Of a stretch of DNA of 64,000 bases, positions 39,910-42,005 are shown in pieces. Origin of the DNA: Paracoccus bogoriensis (GTDB taxonomy: Bacteria; Pseudomonadota; Alphaproteobacteria; Rhodobacterales; Rhodobacteraceae); the NCBI RefSeq assembly GCF_019431455.1, contig NZ_JAHYSR010000003.1:62001-126000 (forward strand). Direction: 5' to 3'. Positions within the stretch are counted from its first letter, which is position 1. Each line of letters begins with the position of its first letter. The position numbers and the translations under genes were made by a program. The notes under the pieces are model-generated. The model made no database searches and had not been told where the DNA came from. It saw only the letters and a list, made by a program, of their open reading frames with translations.

Positions 39910-39986
39910 GGGATGTCCTGTCCTTTGCCTGTCGCGGGGATTGCCGCGTTGTTGCGTCGCGCGCGAGCTTCGCCTACATGCGCGTC

Positions 39987-40508
39987 ATGAGCCTGAGACC
40001 CATCCTGATCCATCCCGATCCGCGCCTCAAGCGTGTGGCCGACCCGATTGCCCGCATCACGCCGGACATCGAGACCCTGGCCGCCGACATGATCGCGACG
40101 ATGTATGACGCGCCCGGCATCGGCCTGGCCGGCCCGCAGGTCGGCGTGTTGCAGCGCATCTTCGTGATGGACGCGACCCGCGACCCCGAGGCCGAGCCCG
40201 ATCCGATGGTTCTGGTGAACCCGGAACTGGTCTGGCGATCGGACGCGACGAATGTCTATGAGGAAGGCTGCCTGTCGATCCCCGACCAATATGCCGAGGT
40301 GACGCGCCCGGCCGAGGTCCGGCTGCGCTGGCTGGGGCTTGACGGCAAGGTTCACGAGCGCGATTTCGACGGGCTGGCCGCGACCTGCGCCCAGCATGAA
40401 CTGGATCATCTGGACGGAGTGCTGTTCATCGACCACCTCTCGGCGATCCGGCGCCAGATGATCACGCGAAAGATGCAGAAGCTCAAGCGGGACCGGGCGC
40501 GCAGCTGA
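39987..40508 (+). CDS. def: Peptide deformylase
   Basis: Removes the formyl group from nascent N termini. The 173-residue metalloenzyme has all three motifs: GIGLAGPQVG, EEGCLSIP (metal Cys) and QHELDHLDG (two metal His and the catalytic Glu). I chose ATG 39987 (MSLRPILIHPDPRLK) because relatives begin this way; ATG 39978 would add three residues. Neither has a clear Shine-Dalgarno. It heads def-def paralogue-fmt. Confidence 0.95.
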   Translation: MSLRPILIHPDPRLKRVADPIARITPDIETLAADMIATMYDAPGIGLAGPQVGVLQRIFVMDATRDPEAEPDPMVLVNPELVWRSDATNVYEEGCLSIPDQYAEVTRPAEVRLRWLGLDGKVHERDFDGLAATCAQHELDHLDGVLFIDHLSAIRRQMITRKMQKLKRDRARS

Positions 40509-40546: not shown

Positions 40547-41050
40547 ATGGCCGTGCGGCCCTTCATCCCCTATTCCGACCCGCGCCTGCATCGCCCGGCC
40601 GAGCCCGTCGAAGCCGTGAACGAGGCCGTGCGGATGATCTGGGACGACATGATCGACACGATGGAGGCGATGCCGGGCGTGGGCCTTGCCGCGCCGCAGA
40701 TCGGGATCATGCTGCGTCTGGCGGTGGTCGATGCGTCCGACAAGCGTGGTCAGGCGGTACGGATGGCCAATCCCGAGATCCTGTATGCCAGCGTTCAGTT
40801 GCGCAGCCATGACGAGGCGAGCCCCAACCTGCCCGGCGTCTGGGCGCCGGTGAAGCGGCCGCGCGCCGTCACGGTGCGGTTCCTCAACGAACAGGGGCAG
40901 ATCGAGGATCGCGATTTCGTCGGCCTGTGGGCGACCAGCGTGCAGCATCAGATCGACCATCTGGAGGGGCGGGTTTATGTGGATTATCTGACGCCCTTGC
41001 GGCGCAGGATGCTGGTCGCGAGATCGGCGAAGCTGGCGCGGAGGGGATAG
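40547..41050 (+). CDS. Degenerate peptide deformylase paralogue
   Basis: A 167-residue PDF-fold protein, 38 bases after def. Motif I is intact ([10 protein letters not shown]). Motif II is lost: where EGCLS should be, the sequence is [13 protein letters not shown] with no Cys. Motif III is HQIDH instead of HExxH, so the catalytic Glu is Gln although both His remain. It should not deformylate by the standard mechanism. The frame is clean and the start well placed (AAGGACCAGCGCC before the ATG), so it is a maintained gene rather than a pseudogene. Confidence 0.88.
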
Positions 41051-41111
41051 CGCCAGGGATTGCCTGCCCCTGGACCGCCGGGGATGTTCGGATCAAGGCA
41101 AAGGAGTGGCC

Positions 41112-42005
41112 ATGCGCGTCATTTTCATGGGGACGCCAGATTTTTCGGTTCCTGCCCTGCGCGAGATCGCCGCGCGCCATGAGATCGTGGCGGTTTATAC
41201 GCAGCCGCCCAGGGCGGCCGGGCGCGGGCAGAAGCCGCGCGTCTCGCCGGTTCAAGCGGCGGCCGAGGCTCTGGGCCTGCCGGTGCGCCATCCCGAGCAG
41301 TTGCGCGATCCGGCCGAGCAGGGCGCCTTTGCTGCGTTGGACGCGGATGTGGCGGTCGTGGTGGCCTATGGGCTGATCCTGCCGCAGCCGGTTCTGGACG
41401 CGCCGCGGCTGGGCTGTCTGAATATCCATGCCTCGATCCTGCCGCGCTGGCGAGGGGCCGCGCCCATTCAGCGGGCCATCATGGCGGGGGATGCCGAAAC
41501 GGGCGTTGCGATCATGCAGATGGAGGCCGGGCTGGATACCGGTCCGGTCCTGGCCGAGGCGCGCACGCCCATTGGCACCGAGGAGACCGCTGCCGATCTG
41601 CATGACCGTTTGTCCGGCATGGGTGCAACCTTGATCTGCGATGTGCTGGGGCGCCTGCCTCTGCCCGCTGTGCCGCAGGCGTCGGAGGGTGTCACCTATG
41701 CCTCCAAGATCCTGAAGGACGAGGCGCGCATCGACTGGACAAGGCCCGCGGCCGAGATCGACCGACAGATCCGTGGCCTGTCGCCTTTTCCCGGCGCCTG
41801 GTGCGATATCGGCGGAGAACGCGTCAAGCTGCTCCGCGCGCGGCTGATCGAGGGCGAGGGTGCGCCGGGCGAGGTTCTGGGAGGATTTCGGGTGGCCTGC
41901 GGGACAGGCGCGCTGGAAATCACCGAGGCCCAGCGTGCGGGAAAGAGGGCTATGCGTGCCGATGATCTTGTGCGCGGATGGGCGCTGCCTTTGCGTTTGG
42001 GGTAG
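41112..42005 (+). CDS. fmt: Methionyl-tRNA formyltransferase
   Basis: Formylates initiator Met-tRNA using 10-formyl-THF. The 297-residue protein begins [19 protein letters not shown] and has the catalytic region [17 protein letters not shown], then [10 protein letters not shown]. The C-terminal domain (about 205-297) carries [10 protein letters not shown]. The ATG at 41112 has AAGGAG five bases upstream; an in-frame GTG at 41106 overlaps that site and is excluded. It ends the def-def-fmt run. Confidence 0.96.

Follow-up and report, generated by a model that had tools for sequence, protein, structure and literature searches.

DefC, a putative pseudodeformylase conserved beside canonical deformylase genes in the Rhodobacter/Roseobacter family

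Directly downstream of an intact peptide deformylase (PDF) gene, Paracoccus bogoriensis encodes a second protein of the PDF fold, here called DefC, in which catalytic residues are replaced, and the same replacements are found throughout its orthologues. The gene defC lies at 40547..41050 (+) of the window, which is the whole analysed stretch of 64,000 nucleotides (contig NZ_JAHYSR010000003.1, positions 62,001 to 126,000); the assignment is based on the ORF, profile matches, orthologues and an AF2 model. From the sequence it is strongly inferred that DefC would lack deformylase activity. With a little more belief than doubt, we read it as a conserved, ribosome-anchored pseudodeformylase that would meet nascent N-termini without hydrolysis.

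The upstream neighbour defA (39978..40508, +) encodes a canonical PDF with intact motifs I to III and a basic C-terminal tail, as judged from its ORF, the PF01327 and TIGR00079 profiles and the charge of the tail. After a gap of 38 nt it is followed by defC, whose ORF starts with ATG and comprises 167 codons for amino acids in a clean frame. Further downstream lies fmt, the gene for methionyl-tRNA formyltransferase (about 41106..42005, +; TIGR00460, 284.4 bits); to judge from the sequence, its translation more probably starts at the ATG at 41112, which is preceded by an AAGGAG. DefC belongs to the structural family PF01327 by both its modelled fold and the Pfam profile (4.5e-39, 134 bits, cut-off 22.8). 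As it also exceeds the cut-off of the NCBIfam profile TIGR00079 'peptide deformylase' (124.8 bits, cut-off 103.95), automatic annotation and public records probably name it 'peptide deformylase'. In the source genome (3.0 Mb) defA and defC are the sole matches to the PDF family. The named orthologues closest to DefC of the window belong, among the matches listed, mostly to Paracoccus and related Paracoccaceae.

Motif I of DefC (GVGLAAPQ; 40676..40699, +) is kept in the sequence and in the orthologue rows, with Gly46 and Gln51 present in 138 of 138 unique rows. Motif II reads EASPNLP (40814..40834, +) in place of the canonical EGCLSIP, or, in its wider context, DEASPNLPG where canonical enzymes have EEGCLSIP; the metal-binding Cys is exchanged for Ser, Leu91 for Pro and the motif's Ser for Asn. 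In motif III, QHQIDHL (40943..40963, +) stands for QHExDHL, with the general-base Glu exchanged for Gln and both His kept. Neither the EGCxS with ligand Cys (EASPN in the window) nor the HExxH with general-base Glu (HQIDH) of a working enzyme is thus present. The preliminary description had reported a PDF-fold protein right after an intact def gene that keeps motif I, lacks the Cys of EGCLS and has HQIDH for HExxH, and a second reading of the sequence proved this correct. Beyond that first reading, the second pocket Cys (E. coli Cys129 position) is Ser in DefC, which like the exchange of Leu91 and the kept basic helix had not been part of it.

In PDFs, Cys and two His bind the metal and Glu serves as general base, which in the numbering of the E. 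coli enzyme are Cys90 for the metal ligand and Glu133 for the base. The backbone NH of Leu91 holds the formyl oxygen. By the structural alignment, from which the residue offset was taken, Ser92, Pro93, Ser131 and Gln135 of DefC correspond to Cys90, Leu91, Cys129 and Glu133 of E. coli PDF. As proline does not offer such a backbone NH, the three exchanges Cys to Ser, Glu to Gln and Leu91 to Pro would together remove the metal ligand, the general base and the Leu91 amide. According to part of a docking study (PMC4964514), a ligand forms bonds with the backbone of Leu91 and with the side chain of Gln50. DefC retains both His and the counterparts of E. coli Gln50, Gly45 and Glu88.

Throughout the 138 unique orthologue rows, REPLACEMENTS is fixed in DefC. 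Positions 92, 93, 94, 131, 134, 135 and 138 read SPNSHQH in 133 rows, SPCSHQH in three and PPNSHQH and SPNPHQH in one each, while all 152 unique DefA rows have CLSCHEH at the same seven positions. Pro93, Gln135, His134 and His138 are present in 138/138 rows; the metal-Cys position 92 is Ser in 137 rows and Pro in a single one (L145). The Tyr which precedes motif I in 152/152 DefA rows is Glu or Asp in 133/138 DefC rows. The 138 rows include loci chosen by the peptide patterns WxDM[IV][DE]TM and WATSVQHQ, the latter of which includes part of motif III, and since this choice overlaps the motif, 65 rows from whole-genome searches that were not chosen by any motif pattern (mostly top-scoring matches of the family, class and order searches, plus weak family ones) form the fairer sample. 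There, Gln135 and Pro93 occur in 65/65 rows and Ser92 in 64/65, and both His stay. The earlier conclusion that DefC is not a normal deformylase is borne out by these rows: the proposed collection of orthologues found the altered motifs conserved family-wide, no row out of 138 contains the catalytic Glu or the metal Cys, and orthologues with intact motifs did not occur among them. A sequencing error or local pseudogene decay in the source genome is practically negligible as an explanation and was rejected, as the change is common to the 138 unique orthologue rows and no point was found in its favour; the clean frame of 40547..41050 noted earlier was likewise seen. A stop inside some orthologue matches turned out to be the natural final stop in the two that were checked (L022, L024).

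Some divergent rows deserve mention. In L148, L151 and L152 motif II reads SPCLPG and contains a Cys, which lies two positions further downstream than the original one. The most degraded DefC seen (L155, genome G224) has SVGLAAPQ as motif I, Pro131 and QHQANH as motif III and is perhaps decaying.

That DefC could still be a weak or conditional deformylase, for example under oxidative stress as both pocket Cys are now Ser, appears very improbable. Ser indeed replaces Cys at the E. coli Cys90 and Cys129 positions, and the consulted part of PMC12690207 suggests such a role for type 3 PDFs, citing active PDFs with altered motifs. However, replacements affect the general base as well as the metal ligand and the amide of Leu91 in the 138 unique rows, and a canonical DefA row exists in the same locus for 134 of the 138 DefC loci (identical rows removed).

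The replaced pocket is conserved to the same degree as that of the canonical enzyme. For 64 matched loci, the mean conservation of 30 motif columns is 0.961 in DefC and 0.959 in DefA, which argues for a pocket under selection rather than a drifting one. Of the eleven sites which are conserved in both DefC and DefA but differ between them, eight (91-95, 98, 131, 135) are located in or beside motifs II and III. An unused pocket would be expected to drift, and to judge from these columns the pocket of DefC is held in a new state. A frozen pocket without decay, with both His in 138/138 rows and Ser92 in 137/138, would also suit an enzyme of altered chemistry, which acts via Ser92, His134 and His138, with a metal or none, on another substrate or bond. 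This alternative is considered unlikely, as an amide (Gln) takes the place of the general base in 138/138 rows, the exchange of Leu91 for Pro takes away the backbone NH beside the ligand, and L145 has at position 92 a Pro, which is incompatible with a Ser nucleophile.

Over the whole protein, mean identity across 64 loci from whole-genome searches is 0.667 for DefC versus 0.699 for DefA, so that DefC evolves slightly faster; in 13 loci selected for weak DefC matches the values are 0.543 versus 0.684. For 35 loci with all three clustered copies, DefA reaches 0.698, DefC 0.671 and the third copy, DefB, only 0.532. By these identities the constraint on DefC is nearly that of the canonical enzyme and above that of the catalytically intact DefB. 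Values of dN (DefA 0.232 and DefC 0.183 in 78 loci; DefB 0.446 in 31 loci) favour DefC because the loci were picked by closeness of DefC. A claim of stronger constraint on DefC than on DefA was consequently dropped, as the identities from whole-genome-search loci point the other way.

An AF2 model of DefC, computed from alignment A2, has a pLDDT of 96.5 and a pTM of 0.92, with the qualification that A2 contains canonical PDFs and the model therefore leans towards the canonical fold. It replaced an earlier model from alignment A1 only (pLDDT 77), which showed the same fold family at lower confidence. The A2 model superimposes on E. coli PDF (1xen) with Z 27.9 and 1.1 A over 165 residues, including the C-terminal helix, and Foldseek agrees. 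This helix comprises residues 150-166 (40994..41044, +) and corresponds, according to the model, the structural alignment through residue 167, the charge of the tail and the K/R columns, to the helix with which E. coli PDF binds the ribosome. The E. coli helix sits between uL22 and L32 via L149, K150, R153 and K157 and touches 23S rRNA with K160 and R163, as described in part of PMC12690207; binding of the PDF C-terminal helix to uL22 is also described in the accessible part of PMC9099147. Helix columns 152, 153, 159 and 162 are basic in 99-100% of the DefC, DefA and outgroup rows, with 152, 159 and 162 corresponding to E. coli K150, K157 and K160. In DefB these three columns are basic in only 0-3% of the rows, and column 153 in 55%. 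At the counterpart of R153, which contacts uL22 in E. coli, 128/138 DefC rows have Met, while DefA has either Met or Leu and most outgroup rows have Met; the counterpart of R163 is basic in 54% of DefC, 95% of DefA and 32% of outgroup rows. The median charge of the C-terminal tail is +6 in DefC, DefA and the outgroup and -1 in DefB. A C-terminal alpha-3 helix with predicted basic ribosome contacts, as is typical for type 1B PDFs, is hence found in DefC by model and residue columns. This retained helix lends support to a role at the ribosome exit, which had been put forward at the outset beside a regulatory role or altered chemistry, although the conserved basic helix could also be inherited baggage.

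Loss of catalysis combined with retention of the basic helix, an outcome seen in two other lineages as well, might alternatively point to a pure decoy, which competes with DefA and the aminopeptidase at the uL22 site and never engages a nascent chain. The pocket of such a decoy should drift, yet the motif columns are conserved as in an active enzyme. A plain decoy is thus regarded as quite improbable, and the frozen pocket rather favours engagement of a ligand.

DefB, when present, is encoded between defA and defC (e.g., L004, L008, L020) and shares with DefC the status of a tandem PDF paralogue in one cluster. In contrast to DefC, its motif I is GRGLAAPQ (with Arg), it has the catalytic Cys, His, Glu and His, it lacks a basic C-terminal tail and it evolves at a higher rate, which makes it a mirror image of DefC. 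CLS and HEH are kept in 64/64 DefB rows and the Gly of EGC in 43/64; these 64 rows exclude those of less than 140 aa or less than 60 bits, so that decayed copies are outside the count. With DefB being catalytic by its motifs and tail-less, and DefC tailed and devoid of the catalytic residues, the two would have lost opposite halves of the PDF job.

Gene order was analysed in 80 named loci out of at least 580 stretches encoding relatives, with 3.3-4 kb downstream examined. The order is defA-defC-fmt in 42 loci and defA-defB-defC-fmt in 24; fmt was not in range in 12, and two loci show other orders. A PDF gene is located upstream of defC in 79/80 loci (defA in 49, defB in 30), and the gap between them is -10 to 30 nt in 69/79 loci, with 4-nt overlaps being frequent. 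Downstream, fmt follows within 150 nt in 61/80 loci, is farther away in seven and was not found within 3.3-4 kb in 12. By these gaps and absences, the linkage of defC to the deformylase genes is closer than its linkage to fmt. The 12 loci without fmt in range, in which defC still accompanies defA or defB (L065, L077, L083, L087, L093, L094, L096, L103, L123, L126, L127, L133), belong to Paracoccus (eight), Salipiger (three) and Citreicella (one).

Such overlaps or near-zero gaps to upstream defA or defB would fit a partner subunit, with DefC stabilising or regulating DefA (or DefB) as part of a heteromer and its pocket having no role. Type 1 PDFs, however, are monomers, a scaffold would not require an invariant new pocket, and genomes such as G101 and G289 possess one PDF and no DefC. 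A function purely as partner subunit therefore seems rather improbable.

DefC is widespread within the Rhodobacter/Roseobacter family. It was found in 145 of 148 genomes of the order sample (completeness at least 95), the exceptions being G101, G289 and G696 with a single PDF match each. As G101 and G289 are well assembled and contain one DefA only, DefC is dispensable there. Three PDF matches were counted in 92 genomes of this sample, two in 53 and a single one in three, which agrees with the 62.5% of three-gene PDF clusters given in the portion of PMC12690207 at hand. A search of the family with the DefC protein yielded some PDF match in 287/295 genomes. The 60 weakest genomes, including eight without a match, were searched again with the orthologue profile A1 at a cut of 188 bits, which assigned DefC to 14 and left 46 without it; the other 235 were counted as carriers on the score of the first search alone (E 1.7e-54 or better), so that about 249/295 genomes contain DefC. 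The profile behind this cut contains the motif, and the margin is narrow (187.2 bits for DefA of G004, 188.1 bits for a partial DefC of G147). The 46 DefC-less genomes include the eight without any PDF match, G098, where a fragment resembling DefC lies at the edge of a contig, and G157, whose frames are broken.

Outside the family, none of the genomes among 337 of the class reached a DefC-level score with the A1 profile, the best value (175.9 bits) being at the level of ordinary PDFs, while the five family members in this set scored 267 bits or more. A search of the same 337 genomes with the DNA pattern for QHQxDHL gave 60 matches in 54 genomes (reversed control: six), four of which lie inside DefC genes; the pattern missed the DefC of G210, and no PDF was present in any of the 30 matching loci that were read. 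Horizontal or mobile spread was considered and rejected, as plasmid and phage records searched with the window protein gave no sign of it: only one of 989 matching plasmid records reached 60-80% identity (a 1.58 Mb replicon of Pseudorhodobacter turbinis), the others being lower, and all 151 matching phage records stayed below 60%.

In the phylogeny the 35 DefC rows included fall into a single clade with a long stem (SH-aLRT 100), and with the seven trait columns removed the clade is recovered with support 100/99 (16 rows, the degraded L155 left out). DefC would thus have originated once from a PDF paralogue, within or at the base of the family. DefA of the DefC-less genomes G265, G083 and G054 groups near the outgroup, as does DefA of the carrier G004, and DefA of DefC-less G292 is nested among carriers beside G147. 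In this weakly supported DefA tree, the placements make loss of DefC likely and original absence possible.

Catalytic residues appear to have been exchanged elsewhere in the Alphaproteobacteria as well. A search covered 76 alphaproteobacterial genomes, of which G000 and G210 were set aside; in the other 74, which lie outside the family, all 129 PDF matches were read, with G544 giving no match. The Cys, His, Glu and His are kept in 125 of them, and four carry a Cys-to-Ser exchange together with replacement of the second His by Tyr or Gln. Exchange of Glu for Gln or of Leu for Pro was absent from these 129 matches, which makes the signature of DefC its own. The four proteins form two pairs on separate tree branches (L331/L343 and L341/L344). 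The L331/L343 type (EASLS, HExDY) was found in 8/18 genomes of one family, all eight read and with basic tails, the best matches of the other ten being ordinary EGCLS/HExxH PDFs. The L341/L344 type (EGS[VI]S, HEIDQ) was read in four genomes of two families, again all with basic tails. Further loci belonging to these two lineages are L363-L370, L388, L391 and L395-L398. Both types resemble DefC in the Cys-to-Ser exchange, a metal site lost by sequence and the basic tail, a parallel outcome seen in 12/12 genomes read across the two lineages; unlike DefC, they keep the Glu and the hydrophobe at the Leu91 position and have lost the second His. DefC is split from the L341/L344 type by one branch (support 92/83, in a tree with a long-branch warning). 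Given the separate branches, catalysis would most simply have been lost, and the ribosome helix kept, three times.

Inactive or weak accessory PDFs are already known as type 3 PDFs. According to parts of PMC12690207 and PMC5591237, these archaeal, trypanosomatid and second S. aureus and S. pneumoniae copies are weak or inactive, and DefC, which carries the substitution in at least one conserved motif that defines the type, resembles them, as far as these parts go, in its motif substitutions and as an accessory copy beside a working PDF. It differs from the type 3 PDFs of these sources by its place in a def-fmt cluster, its one fixed signature and its own clade among alphaproteobacterial PDFs, in trees that were built without type 3 sequences. 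With the type 1B enzymes, E. coli Def and DefA of the operon, DefC has in common the fold (as a model), motif I, the metal-binding His pair, the Glu of motif II and the basic helix; it is set apart by Cys to Ser, Leu91 to Pro, Glu to Gln, the second Cys to Ser and, in 133/138 rows, Tyr to Glu/Asp. A 2025 survey (PMC12690207) states, in its main-text parts, that PDF genes are clustered in 98.1% of the Rhodobacterales reference species and calls the rationale elusive; a dead member of the clusters is not stated in these parts, and the supplementary tables might give the motif status. Within the open full-text literature, that is, outside subscription papers and supplements, no description of a catalytically dead PDF in the Rhodobacterales def-fmt cluster was found.

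Taken together, DefC carries replacements of the metal ligand, of the general base and of the amide on the oxyanion side, after which its pocket appears to have been frozen in the new state, and it has kept the basic C-terminal helix that anchors PDF at the ribosomal tunnel exit. Less certain are the further steps, in which DefC may be produced together with DefA, may dock close to the exit at the uL22 site and may sample or hold nascent (formyl-)Met N-termini without cutting them, and might thereby tune the timing of DefA, methionine aminopeptidase or targeting factors. The retrieved parts of PMC9099147, PMC8185961 and PMC5454389 describe that PDF and methionine aminopeptidase compete at the tunnel exit, that PDF is slow to release the nascent chain and that SRP blocks deformylation. 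In view of this competition, a ribosome-docked, non-cutting PDF would fit as a brake or a reader. It is conceivable, though doubtful, that the dedicated function of DefC at the exit is to read N-formyl-methionine on nascent chains without hydrolysis, so that deformylation is delayed or the chains are directed to targeting or to quality control by the fMet-degron; in that case, deformylases that are catalytically dead but anchored to the ribosome would represent a recurring device, which evolved, most simply, three times in the sampled Alphaproteobacteria.

For the family, the finding means that defC is probably named a deformylase in hundreds of genomes. It also offers a candidate rationale for the PDF clusters, which would combine a canonical enzyme with a tail-less DefB that is catalytic by its residues and a tailed DefC without catalysis. 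Should DefC bind formyl-Met at the tunnel exit, deformylation, a step treated as constitutive and an antibiotic target, would gain a further level of regulation.
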